From a virus: a DNA stretch of 64,000 nucleotides. The translations under genes and the position numbers were made by a program. The notes beneath the pieces were generated by a model. It was given only the letters and a program-made list of their open reading frames with translations. It had not been told where the DNA came from and made no database searches. The stretch is taken from positions 1 to 64,000 of IMG/VR virus record IMGVR_UViG_3300020204_000065. One strand, written 5' to 3'. Within the stretch, counting starts at the first letter, position 1. Each line of letters begins with the position of its first letter. Below are positions 2,476 through 63,372 of the stretch, piece by piece.

Positions 2476-2955
2476 TCAGATCTTGACTTGACGCCAAGAC
2501 AAACCCTTATGAATGTTGGAAATTGTGTGGTGGCTAACTGAATAGCCTTCGGCAATCTTTTCGTAAGCTTGCTGCCTAGAACCAAAACGATTCATCGTCT
2601 TGTCATCAGACAGCATCAGCTTAATTTCACGAACAGACTCAGGTGTTAACTTGCAGTTACCTATAGGTGGCTTACGTTGTTTCATGGCAACAACAGTAGT
2701 CTTCTTTGAGCTTTTCCTTGCCAGCTCTTCGAGATAAGCAAGGCCTTCTTCCTTGGACATAGTCAGCCCATCCTCCCGTACCTGCGACTGTTGCAGAGGG
2801 GGACGGGGGGTTGTCTGGATCCAAGGTGTTTTGACGGGAAAGCCAAGAGTGACAGATGTTCCATCCTTAAGGACAGAGATTGTTACCTTGCCATCCCTGG
2901 TAATGACAGAGACGTGGTCTGGTGCTGTGACATCAAACTGGCTGAGTGCGTCCAT
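2476..2955 (-). CDS. HTH regulator-like protein
   Basis: A 159-residue protein. The N-terminal half is beta-rich (residues 15-45); a Lys-rich linker follows, and residues 103-159 form a helix-turn-helix of the type seen at the C-terminus of HNH homing endonucleases (AYEKIAEGYSVSHHTISN). The same kind of domain ends the intron-associated HNH protein at 22104-22664. The likely role is DNA binding, possibly control of this cassette. A 13-bp hairpin lies in its leader at 2998-3027. Confidence 0.6.
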   Translation of the reverse strand: MDALSQFDVTAPDHVSVITRDGKVTISVLKDGTSVTLGFPVKTPWIQTTPRPPLQQSQVREDGLTMSKEEGLAYLEELARKSSKKTTVVAMKQRKPPIGNCKLTPESVREIKLMLSDDKTMNRFGSRQQAYEKIAEGYSVSHHTISNIHKGLSWRQVKI

Positions 2956-2997
2956 GTCTTTAATTGAGATGAGTGCAGTGGATGCAAGTAGAGAATA

Positions 2998-3027
2998 GCT
3001 GGCACCTGCAAAGATGCAAGTACCAGC
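2998..3027 (-). promoter_or_regulatory. Strong leader hairpin
   Basis: On the minus strand GCTGGTACTTGCA pairs with TGCAGGTGCCAGC (13 pairs, two G-U) around a 4-nt loop. It sits 43 nt upstream of the start at 2955, comparable with the spacing of the other leader hairpins, but its sequence is unrelated to L1-L3. Confidence 0.5.
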
Positions 3028-3063
3028 TGTAGCGTCTTACGTTTGCGTGACACCAGATGTGGT

Positions 3064-3291
3064 CTAGTCGTGTGGAATGAAGTCGGAATCGTTAAGCAGC
3101 TGATGCACTGACAAGCAGTCCTCAGCAATTTCATCTGGGGTGCAGCCTTCCCAATCCTCTGTTTGATTCTCAACCACCTCGCAGCCAATGTCTTCGAGTT
3201 GATCAGAGAACAAAACAAAGGTTTGAGCTGTGCCCCAGACGTGGGCATAACGACCGCTTTGATCAGCGACCAGGGCGACGTGTGTTCTCAT
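3064..3291 (-). CDS. Small acidic hypothetical protein
   Basis: A 75-residue protein, strongly acidic in its second half (TEDWEGCTPDEIAEDCL). The N-terminus resembles a beta-hairpin (THVALVADQSGRYAHVWG). The start at 3291 lies inside the 3' end of the upstream membrane-protein gene (29-nt overlap). No Shine-Dalgarno. Function unknown. Confidence 0.55.
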   Translation of the reverse strand: MRTHVALVADQSGRYAHVWGTAQTFVLFSDQLEDIGCEVVENQTEDWEGCTPDEIAEDCLSVHQLLNDSDFIPHD

Positions 3292-3466
3292 TGTTCTGTG
3301 GATTGAGGTTAGTAATGTCGACGCCAACCATGGCACCTGCCGTCATCACTGCGATAGCAATGACGAAGAGGGTGCATAAGACATTGAAACGGCGTGTCTC
3401 ACGAGACTCACCGTAAGAATCAAGTCTGATGTAACGGTTGCGTCCGAGTCGTGTTGTGTGTTTCAT
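3263..3466 (-). CDS. Small single-pass membrane protein
   Basis: A 67-residue protein: basic N-terminal 28 residues, then a transmembrane helix (VLCTLFVIAIAVMTAGAM, about residues 29-48) and a short polar tail. The ATG at 3466 lies one base after the stop of the upstream gene, so translation is probably coupled. Function unknown. Confidence 0.55.
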   Translation of the reverse strand: MKHTTRLGRNRYIRLDSYGESRETRRFNVLCTLFVIAIAVMTAGAMVGVDITNLNPQNNENTRRPGR

Positions 3467-22926: not shown

Positions 22927-24078
22927 AACGACTTTCCAAAGATTTTAGGTGCGGAACTTTATCGTCCCCACCCTGCATATATTGCCGAGATGGCAGTCGA
23001 GCCTGTGGTCGTTCATGACTTCACTCGTCAGCCTGGTCAGACCGTTCAGTTAGACCGCTATAAGTTCTGGGGTACCCCTGGTACTAAGGACAGCCGTGAG
23101 CGTATTGCCGATCAGACCATCGGTACCGCCAACAGCCGTAACATCACCAAGGAGAAAGTCCTGGTGGTGCTTAAGGAATACACTGGTCCTGCAGATCCGG
23201 GTGATCCGACCCAGCCTTCGACCTTCAAGATTGCTCGTGAAACCCTGATTACCGCCCAGCGCCTGCTGCTGGACACCGGTAATCTCAACATGTTCCACCA
23301 GTCAATTGGTAGCCTCACCCTGTTGGATGACTACCGCCGCTGGCGCGACCGTGTCTTTATTGACGAACTTGCCAAAGCAGAAGCTAACGGTGAAGCTTCC
23401 AGCACCCAGGGTGGTTACTACTTCCCAGGTAGCAAGAACAAAGCTGCCAATGGTTCGATCTCTTACACCGCTGCTGAGTTCACCGCTGAAGTGCAGCAGT
23501 TCCAGGTGCGCACTGACCTTCTGACCATTGTTAAGGACCTGCGTAAGCGCAACGTTCCTACCTTCGCTGATGGTCTGTATCGTTGCATCTGCGATCCCAC
23601 CTTCATGATGCACCTGCGTCGTGATACTGACTTCCGTGAGATCGCTCGTTACGCTGGTAACCCTGGCCAAGGCATGTACATGGGCAACCCCATGATGCCT
23701 AACAACGCCAGCTTCTACATGGGTCCCCAGGCTGGTCAAGGTTACTTCCTGGCTGGCGAACCTGTGATGCCTACCGGCGTTCAGTTCGAAGGTGTGAAGT
23801 TCTTCGAGTCGACCAACTTCCCCACTAAGAACGTTCAAGCTTCGTTCGATGCTGGCTCCAGCTACAGCTCCCAGGAAGTGGCCCAAGGTTACTTCTTCGG
23901 TCCTCAGTCTGTCGGTGTGGGTATTGGCGGTCCGAACGCACAAGTTCTGATCAACAATAACGACGATTTCAGTCGTTTTATCATCCTGATTTGGCAACTT
24001 TACGCTGGTTTCGAGATCCTCAACAAGGACTTTGTTACCACCGCGTTCAGCTTCGTGTCTGATGACGGCAACGTCTGA
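22927..24078 (+). CDS. Major capsid protein, exon 2
   Basis: About 383 residues including an open frame before the ATG at 22990 that continues the sequence (KILGAELYRPHPAYIAEMAV). The protein is rich in Gly, Asn, Phe and Gln and has GC-biased, uniform codons like the next gene, as expected of the most abundant virion protein. Position after portal and scaffold-like gene, and before a decoration-like gene, supports the call. Use of the internal ATG alone would lack the first ~25 residues. Confidence 0.8.
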   Translation, partial: NDFPKILGAELYRPHPAYIAEMAVEPVVVHDFTRQPGQTVQLDRYKFWGTPGTKDSRERIADQTIGTANSRNITKEKVLVVLKEYTGPADPGDPTQPSTFKIARETLITAQRLLLDTGNLNMFHQSIGSLTLLDDYRRWRDRVFIDELAKAEANGEASSTQGGYYFPGSKNKAANGSISYTAAEFTAEVQQFQVRTDLLTIVKDLRKRNVPTFADGLYRCICDPTFMMHLRRDTDFREIARYAGNPGQGMYMGNPMMPNNASFYMGPQAGQGYFLAGEPVMPTGVQFEGVKFFESTNFPTKNVQASFDAGSSYSSQEVAQGYFFGPQSVGVGIGGPNAQVLINNNDDFSRFIILIWQLYAGFEILNKDFVTTAFSFVSDDGNV

Positions 24079-24962: not shown

Positions 24963-25373
24963 ATGCTTTACCAGCATCGTAAAACCGGCGCTCGCGTCAA
25001 AGTTGTAAGCGAATGGGATAACGGCGATTGGTTCATGGTCGAAGATCAGGACGGTCGCCTTTATACCGCTTACAAAAATGAATTGATCCCTGATGAAGTT
25101 GCAACCAAGAAAGTTGCCACTCTTCAGGTTAAAGATAAGGCAGCCCAAGAAGAGCCTCGTACTTTCCCACCCGAAACGCGTTTAAACATCAATACCGCTA
25201 CCCCACAAATGATCGCTGATCATATTAAAGGTATCGGCGTCAAGACAGCTCGAGAGATTAAAGATCTTCAGATGTCCTTATCGGGTGAGAAGTTTAATAG
25301 CCTTGAGCAATTGAAACAGATTAAGCGTGTGGACTGGGATGCAGTTCTGGCAGCCGACCTGATCAGGGTTTGA
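24963..25373 (+). CDS. Helix-hairpin-helix virion-module protein
   Basis: A 136-residue protein. Residues 1-45 look like a small beta barrel (KOW/SH3-like, VKVVSEWDNGDWFMVEDQDG). Residues 70-135 form a helix-hairpin-helix of the ComEA type (LNINTATPQMIADHIKGIGV), a non-specific DNA-binding fold. A head-closure or genome-contact protein is a plausible role. Start abuts a 9-bp hairpin and has no Shine-Dalgarno. Confidence 0.6.
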   Translation: MLYQHRKTGARVKVVSEWDNGDWFMVEDQDGRLYTAYKNELIPDEVATKKVATLQVKDKAAQEEPRTFPPETRLNINTATPQMIADHIKGIGVKTAREIKDLQMSLSGEKFNSLEQLKQIKRVDWDAVLAADLIRV

Positions 25374-25392
25374 TCCATTTACCACAGATAAG

Positions 25393-25416
25393 CCCCTGGG
25401 AAACCAGGGGTTTTTT
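25393..25416 (+). terminator. Rho-independent terminator
   Basis: CCCCTGG/CCAGGGG stem with a GAAA tetraloop and six T, 20 nt after the preceding stop. It separates the HhH gene from the M23 gene. Confidence 0.85.
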
Positions 25417-25442: not shown

Positions 25443-26111
25443 ATGGCTGGTATTCAGTATTTCGGGCAAGTTGGATCGACTGGTGTATCAACCGGTCCGC
25501 ATAAACATGTTTATGTGAAAGAGTTAGCCACTGGGAAGTACCTGGATCCAGCAACCATTCGTACGCCTTTACTTGGTTTACGCATCGGGGAAAAGAAAAT
25601 ACCGGCACTGATTAAGACACCAGAAGGCAAGATTGAATTCAATCCAGCTGCTGGAATTACTCTCACATCTCGTTACGGTCCACGTAGTGCGCCAACTGCT
25701 GGTGCCAGTACCTTCCACCAAGGAGAGGATTGGGCGCTACCAGAAGGCACTCCTATTTACTACGAAGGCGGTGGTAAGTTTGTTCCGAAAGCAAACCAAG
25801 GTGGTTACGGTAATCTTGCCACTCTGATTACAAGCGATAACAAATACGAAGTTGGCTTGGGCCACATGAAAACGCTTGGTGGCGCATCTGAGTTACCGCC
25901 AACAACCCTGCCAGTTGATACTTCTGCTTCTGCAGAAACGAATGATTTGTCAACTTTATTATCTTTATTGCAGCTAACCAAGCCAAAGCAAAAAACATTA
26001 CAAGAATCACTTCTTGAGCAGACCTTGGGGGAAGCTTTAACTCCAAAACCAAGCATGACGCAGCAATTCCTCATGGAGTATATGAATTCTCCACTGCCAG
26101 GACTTGCTTAA
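25443..26111 (+). CDS. Circularly permuted M23-type peptidase
   Basis: A 222-residue protein with all the signature residues of LytM/M23 zinc peptidases but in rotated order. The usual C-terminal STGPHxH motif is at residues 16-22 (H20, H22); the usual start SRYGPR plus HxxxD follow at residues 76-96 (H92, D96), and the third His, in GLGHM, is H141. In normal M23 domains HxH comes last. The last 80 residues are a Thr/Ser/Leu tail. Likely cleaves peptidoglycan cross-links, perhaps as a virion enzyme. Possibly inactive if the fold is not kept. Confidence 0.7.
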   Translation: MAGIQYFGQVGSTGVSTGPHKHVYVKELATGKYLDPATIRTPLLGLRIGEKKIPALIKTPEGKIEFNPAAGITLTSRYGPRSAPTAGASTFHQGEDWALPEGTPIYYEGGGKFVPKANQGGYGNLATLITSDNKYEVGLGHMKTLGGASELPPTTLPVDTSASAETNDLSTLLSLLQLTKPKQKTLQESLLEQTLGEALTPKPSMTQQFLMEYMNSPLPGLA

Positions 26112-27621: not shown

Positions 27622-28248
27622 ATGTCTTACACCAGCGAACAACTTAAAGAAATTGCGAGGCAGAAAGCCCGCACTTATGGTGTAAATGAAGACATCTTTC
27701 TGCGTCTTGTAGGAGCAGAGTCTGGCTGGAATCCACGTGCCAAAAGCGGTGCTGGTGCCATGGGTCTTGTTCAGCTCATGCCTGGTACTGCACAAGGACT
27801 TGGTGTTTCGGATCCTTATGATCCTGTCCAAAGTCTGACGGGTGGTGCCCGTTATTTGAGCCAACAACTCAAGCGTTTTGGTTCTTATGACAAAGCTTTG
27901 GCCGCATACAATGCTGGTCCTGGCAATGTTGAACGATATGGTGGAATCCCGCCATTTAAGGAAACACAGAATTATGTGAAAAAAATCCTTGGTGGTGTTG
28001 ATGTTGCAGCCAAACCAAAACCACAGACACAAGAACCACCCGCCTCTGGATCACAAGTACAAGATTTCTTGAAGGGTTTTCTCCTTCAAAATTTCTTACT
28101 TAATGATCAAAACGTTGCACCTTCCATTGGCGAGCAGTTACTCAAGACTGCATTCCAACGCCCAATGACTGGAGTTGAAACGGATATCTCAACGGCGTCC
28201 TTATTTACACCAAGGACACCATTCTTGGAATCCCTCACTCAGTTCTAG
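27622..28248 (+). CDS. Virion lytic transglycosylase (SLT domain)
   Basis: A 208-residue protein with a Shine-Dalgarno (GTAGGAGAATAAG). Residues 20-110 form an SLT/lysozyme-like domain: catalytic Glu in GAESGWNP, then [15 protein letters not shown] and [13 protein letters not shown], all SLT family hallmarks. It cuts peptidoglycan by transglycosylation, probably during infection. The C-terminal half is a Gln/Phe-rich tail, perhaps to anchor it in the virion. Confidence 0.88.
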
Positions 28249-63298: not shown

Positions 63299-63372
63299 CG
63301 GGGATTAGCGCAGTTTGGTAGCGCAATTGCTTTGGGAGCAATGGGTCGCAGGTTCAAATCCTGCATTCTCGA
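63299..63372 (+). tRNA. tRNA-Pro (UGG)
   Basis: Full cloverleaf: 7-bp acceptor CGGGGAT/ATTCTCG (two G-U), D-arm GCGC...GCGC, anticodon arm ATTGC/GCAAT with loop TTTGGGA (anticodon TGG), T-arm GCAGG TTCAAAT CCTGC and discriminator A. CCA is not encoded. The last bases and following TTATCGAGAA form a short inverted repeat. Such tRNAs are usual in cyanophages and could also mark an integration site. Confidence 0.9.

Follow-up and report, generated by a model that had tools for sequence, protein, structure and literature searches.

Results

The gene and its genomic setting

The window, by which we mean the whole 64,000-nucleotide stretch of viral DNA analysed here, is part of the 64.5-kb record of a freshwater cyanobacterial virus whose closest cultured relative is the cyanophage S-EIV1. 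Downstream of the major capsid protein gene, and so within the structural module, lies the gene for the protein described here (hereafter, the window protein). It is separated from the preceding helix-hairpin-helix (HhH) protein gene by a hairpin resembling an intrinsic terminator, and in-frame stops are found upstream of its start codon (Table 1). The gene at the corresponding place in S-EIV1 encodes AHV82231.1, which is 37% identical to the window protein. In relatives at 51-91% identity the start is conserved and the full length is kept, and the same start was found across dozens of independent contigs. The ratio dN/dS over the domain was 0.02-0.10 where dS could be estimated, values that are rough because dS is high; the gene is under strong purifying selection. 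The only tRNA gene found in the window is a tRNA-Pro (TGG) at 63299-63372 (+).

Table 1 Features at the locus of the window protein (positions in the window; residue numbers refer to the window protein).
Feature	Position	Strand	Remarks
Major capsid protein gene	22990..24078	+	phrog_1357, E 3.6e-17; marks the structural module
HhH protein gene	24963-25373		Upstream of the permuted M23 gene
Intrinsic-terminator-like hairpin	25390..25413	+	Between the HhH gene and the permuted M23 gene
Permuted M23 protein gene	25443..26111	+	ORF; 222 aa plus stop
C-terminal half of canonical M23, placed first (GQVGSTGVSTGPHKH...LDPATI)	25443..25562	+	Residues 1-40; Pfam M23 67-96, canonical profile 100-132
HxH motif, H20-K21-H22	25500..25508	+	Conservation among distinct relatives (see text)
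Joining segment, old C-terminus to old N-terminus	25563..25658	+	Residues 41-72; 30-odd residues
N-terminal half of canonical M23, placed second	25659..25892	+	Residues 73-150; Pfam M23 2-54, canonical profile 2-89
Zinc-ligand motif HxxxD, H92-QGE-D96	25716..25730	+	Invariant in 59/59 core members
H141 of GLGHM, catalytic His of the YxH(L/M) strand	25863..25865	+	Invariant in 59/59 core members
C-terminal tail, partly helical	25893..26108	+	Residues 151-222; low model confidence
SLT lytic transglycosylase gene	27622..28248	+	PF01464, E 3.5e-27; three genes downstream of the permuted M23 gene

Motif order and domain organization

The M23 peptidase domain of the window protein is almost certainly circularly permuted. 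The canonical C-terminal half (GSTGVSTGPHKH) comes first in its chain, and the N-terminal half with SRYGPR, HxGxD, and GLGHM comes after. The window protein and every core relative have the order HxH - HxxxD - H and retain both half-domains; none of them has the canonical collinear order HxxxD - H - HxH. The original prediction had read the same arrangement from the sequence (STGPHxH first, then SRYGPR, HxxxD, and GLGHM), and H20-K-H22, H92-x-x-x-D96, and H141 were located where it had placed them. It had listed four zinc or catalytic residues, H22, H92, D96, and H141; all are present, but H20 is missing from this list, although as the leading His of HxH it is the expected second catalytic histidine. 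By analogy with LytM, H20-K21-H22 presumably supplies this catalytic His and a zinc ligand. H20, H22, H92, and H141 are the sole histidines of the protein.

The motifs TSxFGxR, HxGxD, GGYGN, xxH(M/L), and GSTGxSTGPHxH are common to the window protein and to the canonical enzymes NMB0315 (PDB 3SLU), ShyA (PDB 6UE4), LytM (PDB 2B0P), and lysostaphin, and after rotation the window protein can be aligned with canonical M23 peptidases over the whole domain. It differs from them in its swapped halves, a missing hairpin, and an added joining segment; it also lacks their accessory domains and has a C-terminal tail. When rotated permuted domains were aligned with canonical ones, all motifs were in register and the V..G..V..GQ.I hairpin, which in canonical domains lies between YxHL and GxVGsTG, was missing from the permuted forms. 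As judged from these aligned sequences, that hairpin is the point at which the chain has been opened. The joining segment mostly has no counterpart in the canonical profile.

Profile searches returned the two halves in swapped order. Pfam M23 (PF01551) matched residues 91-144 of the window protein to profile positions 2-54, and when the first 55 residues were searched alone, residues 5-36 matched positions 67-96 weakly (E 0.067). The native sequence scored 33.9 bits against a curated cut-off of 28.7, and the rotated sequence 38.7 bits over the full profile (2-96 of 96). By phmmer, 3SLU was matched twice, with residues 61-144 aligned to chain positions 215-297 and residues 3-50 to positions 307-352; the best PDB match scored 43.6 bits in two pieces in native order versus 55.4 bits in one alignment after rotation. 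Using hhalign, a native-order profile of 23 permuted relatives gave two matches to canonical M23 (query 59-147 to 2-89, prob 99.3; query 6-40 to 100-132, prob 98.0), and a rotated profile of 24 rows gave a single match of 116 columns (prob 99.9). Doubling the domain in tandem, a check suggested with the original prediction, likewise yielded a single 131-column match in hhalign (prob 99.8). The predicted permutation is therefore borne out by Pfam, PDB, and profile comparisons alike, each giving swapped-order matches that rotation or doubling made single.

Conservation and predicted structure

Positions 20, 92, 96, and 141, four of the five active-site positions, are invariant in 59/59 core relatives. 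Of 63 distinct relatives, all have His at position 20; at position 22, 58 have His and 5 have Asp. We modeled the protein with AlphaFold2 as a monomer (32 sequences), and block pLDDT was mostly >90 for residues 20-150 and about 93-96 for the joining segment, with a helical tail of low confidence. Sequential fold searches are ill-suited to circular permutations, and a sequential Foldseek search of the model against the PDB returned no M23 structure among the best 50 matches, an absence that fits a permuted topology and is no proof of it. Against viral models, Foldseek identified S-TIM5 and one other protein with a probability of 1.00.

Permuted M23 domains in other phages and bacteria

S-EIV1 AHV82231.1, annotated as "peptidase M23 family", has the same permuted order and genome place as the window protein, from which it differs by HxD instead of HxH and by a 4-residue insert before the motif. 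It gave no Pfam match even at E 1, and its record does not note a permutation. In the marine Aurunvirus phages S-TIM5 (AEZ65701.1) and S-TIM66, homologous proteins of about 1000 aa, annotated as virion structural, have an embedded M23 domain that is likewise permuted and shows the motifs HLH, HxGxD, and AHL. The 997-aa S-TIM5 protein reads GWVGYSGESRPPGPEGAHLHMEIR, then TSEHGSR, HTGVD, and LAHL, and has Phage_lysozyme2 at its end. The flanks of the S-TIM66 homologue are nearly identical to those of S-TIM5, with a much diverged permuted domain (41% identity); a pattern scan of IMG/VR found no S-TIM66-like domains. Upstream of its permuted domain, at residues about 430-464, the S-TIM5 protein (L179:6128-9121) also contains SLAGINVKEGDKVEIGQIIGSV, which matches the hairpin that permuted domains are without (Pfam M23 45-80, E 3e-4). 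This segment could be left over from a tandem M23 duplication; alternatively, it could be a barrel-sandwich motif with no such history.

M23 domains permuted like that of the window protein, but with HxD, are inserted in the tape measures of Acinetobacter Vieuvirus phages (the phage set had 24 Acinetobacter records) and of Moraxella Mcat phages. These domains (L181, L184, L187-L193) fall below the Pfam cut-off where tested, as did the distant permuted members tested against PF01551, and they are likely unannotated in most records. When bacterial genomes were searched with a permuted query, the best 80 matches comprised 72 canonical domains, 7 permuted ones (all Acinetobacter), and 1 that was cut off. 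Candidates from cyanophage ACG-2014f, two Vibrio phages, and a human-gut phage contig proved on checking to have canonical order, which for the ACG-2014f peptidase M23 was read directly from the sequence. Canonical order is also found in phi29 gp13 and SP-beta CwlP, phage M23 domains that serve the virion and cut peptidoglycan at entry (PMC9662197).

Domain exchange at the locus

We selected the 80 relatives that were closest by the gene following the permuted M23 gene (phrog_29158), and in each we read the gene that precedes the phrog_29158 homologue. A permuted M23 domain occupies the locus in 50 (45 with HxH, 5 with HxD), an M15-like domain with HxxGxAxD and HxH motifs in 20, and a protein of uncertain kind, here termed GFTG-type, in 7; the script left 3 of the 80 unclassed, among them L105, which on reading is M15-like. 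Canonical-order M23 was found at the locus in 0/77 classed relatives. Near-identical tails follow the M15-like domain in sister phages and the permuted M23 domain elsewhere; the tail of L172 (M15-like), for example, is 96% identical to that of L170 (permuted) over 75 residues. Because tails are exchanged between domain types, the sequences suggest that the catalytic domain behaves as a zinc-peptidase cassette that can be swapped. The motif residues of the M15-like domain are nearly all invariant in sister phages, and among its PDB fold matches the Zn DD-peptidase 1LBU had the highest probability (prob 0.69), but at E 0.09.

The M15-like lysin gene of L105, an S-EIV1-like contig, has an N-terminal extension of roughly 140 aa and is flanked by HNH and GIY-YIG homing-endonuclease-like genes (L105:1160-1603 and 2864-3445, both -), which are a possible driver of domain exchange at the locus. 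GFTG-type proteins (L149:1739-2533, L135, L153, and L163) have a homologue inside the 854-aa S-WAM2 protein AOV61704.1 (L185:1447-4011) and gave no Pfam match. Their motif order resembles that of permuted M23, with YHID first, then D, GGYG, and GHG, and with altered metal residues. They may be a further permuted M23 form; we did not count them as such, the profile match coming partly from the tail and missing the first motif.

A neighboring cell-wall glycosidase

The SLT lytic transglycosylase encoded three genes downstream is the probable partner glycosidase of the permuted M23 protein. The corresponding stretch encodes Phage_lysozyme2 in S-EIV1, a few genes after the M23 gene, and in L174; in L117 and L149 it encodes a lysozyme/endolysin-like protein, and in L130, L133, L163, and L119 it gave no clear family. 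The pairing of M23 with a glycosidase is common, if perhaps not universal, among the relatives looked at. We also considered a docking motif common to the M23 tail and the SLT-gene tail and rejected it, the likeness within a phage being no greater than between phages; the two tails matched, weakly, in S-EIV1 only.

Discussion

Proposed function and alternatives

Taken as a whole, the window protein is probably a circularly permuted M23 (LytM/lysostaphin-type) zinc endopeptidase that is associated with the virion and acts with the neighboring glycosidase at entry. The chain begins at the strand that precedes STGPHxH, the domain ends just after the YxH(M) strand, and the two halves are predicted to refold into the usual M23 sheet. 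From what is known of the M23 family, H22, H92, and D96 would hold the zinc, H20 and H141 would assist catalysis, and the bond cut would be a peptide bond of peptidoglycan. The genomic context suggests that the enzyme acts from the virion during entry, together with the glycosidase, and that the exchangeable C-terminal tail probably docks it there. The virion role is proposed because of the position in the structural module, the nearby glycosidase, and the permuted domains in the S-TIM5 virion protein and in tape-measure proteins; the reading as a whole is also supported by the finding that a probable M15-like zinc peptidase with the same tail can replace the permuted M23 domain.

The same enzyme might instead serve as a late endolysin that bursts the host at the end of infection. 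This would suit a small, stand-alone protein whose PHROGs matches are mostly labeled endolysin, and the terminator-like hairpin sets the gene apart from the upstream gene, so separate expression is possible. We nevertheless regard it as unlikely, since the gene sits among structural genes, virion proteins of other phages contain homologous permuted domains, and no holin was noticed next to it in a general reading of the neighboring genes. A catalytically dead fold with a structural or wall-binding role appears highly improbable. In its favor, bacterial LytM factors provide known cases of degenerate M23 domains (PMC9662197), HxD stands in place of HxH in the versions from S-EIV1 and the tape measures, and the GFTG-type subgroup has altered motifs; against this stand the invariance of positions 20, 92, 96, and 141 in the window protein as in its core relatives, with position 22 restricted to His or Asp, and the exchange of the domain for a probable M15-like zinc peptidase.

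The half-domains could also work only by pairing between two chains, as a domain-swapped dimer. Sequence alone cannot tell intramolecular from intermolecular assembly, and AlphaFold was run on the monomer only; but that monomer model is confident over residues 20-150, joining segment included, the rotated sequence gives one continuous full-length match, and both halves occur in every core member, and we judge such a dimer quite improbable. Finally, a chimeric assembly or a wrong start codon masking a canonical M23 has nothing in its favor beyond the unusual order, its probability is negligible, and it is refuted by the data: the same order and start recur in dozens of independent contigs with in-frame stops upstream, and the same order recurs in the complete genome of cultured S-EIV1, in S-TIM5 and S-TIM66, and in Acinetobacter genomes. 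The conserved start, the purifying selection, and the hairpin and in-frame stops upstream therefore mean that this is not a mis-assembled or mis-started canonical gene.

Relation to known peptidases and implications

Lysostaphin-type antibacterials derive from M23, which ranks among the major families of bacterial cell-wall peptidases. Our search, which covered open-access papers, turned up no account of a permuted M23 or LytM domain, and an earlier report elsewhere is possible; a review of the family (PMC9662197) is silent on permutation. The M23 assignment of the S-EIV1 homologue was already known from its record, and the permutation is apparently undescribed. A precedent exists in the permuted NlpC/P60 domains, in which the YaeF/G6R and LRAT-like families have a permuted catalytic domain within a cell-wall peptidase superfamily (PMC6403190), but theirs is an unrelated cysteine-peptidase fold.

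The permuted form is widespread and recurs in unrelated phages, namely freshwater and marine cyanobacterial viruses and phages of Acinetobacter and Moraxella. That the active site is complete in a natural permutation indicates that the M23 fold can be opened at the YxHL / GxVGsTG hairpin, which offers enzyme engineers alternative termini. The permutation also explains why such lysins escape annotation, as only half of the domain is visible to Pfam and mostly below threshold, and it reveals putative wall-cutting domains, previously unrecognized, in the tape measures and large virion structural proteins of known phages.

Origin of the permutation

The permutation most likely arose when a tandemly duplicated domain lost its outer halves, which is the usual route to such an arrangement. 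It may be, though we consider it less likely than not, that permutation at this same hairpin occurred more than once (in S-EIV1-like phages, S-TIM-like myoviruses, and Acinetobacter/Moraxella tape measures), because the form suits building into or docking on virion machinery. On a tree that combined canonical domains with rotated permuted ones, the permuted label had to change three times, but a single origin was not rejected (AU p 0.32). The canonical sequence nearest to the Acinetobacter/Moraxella tape-measure domains in this tree is cyanobacterial.
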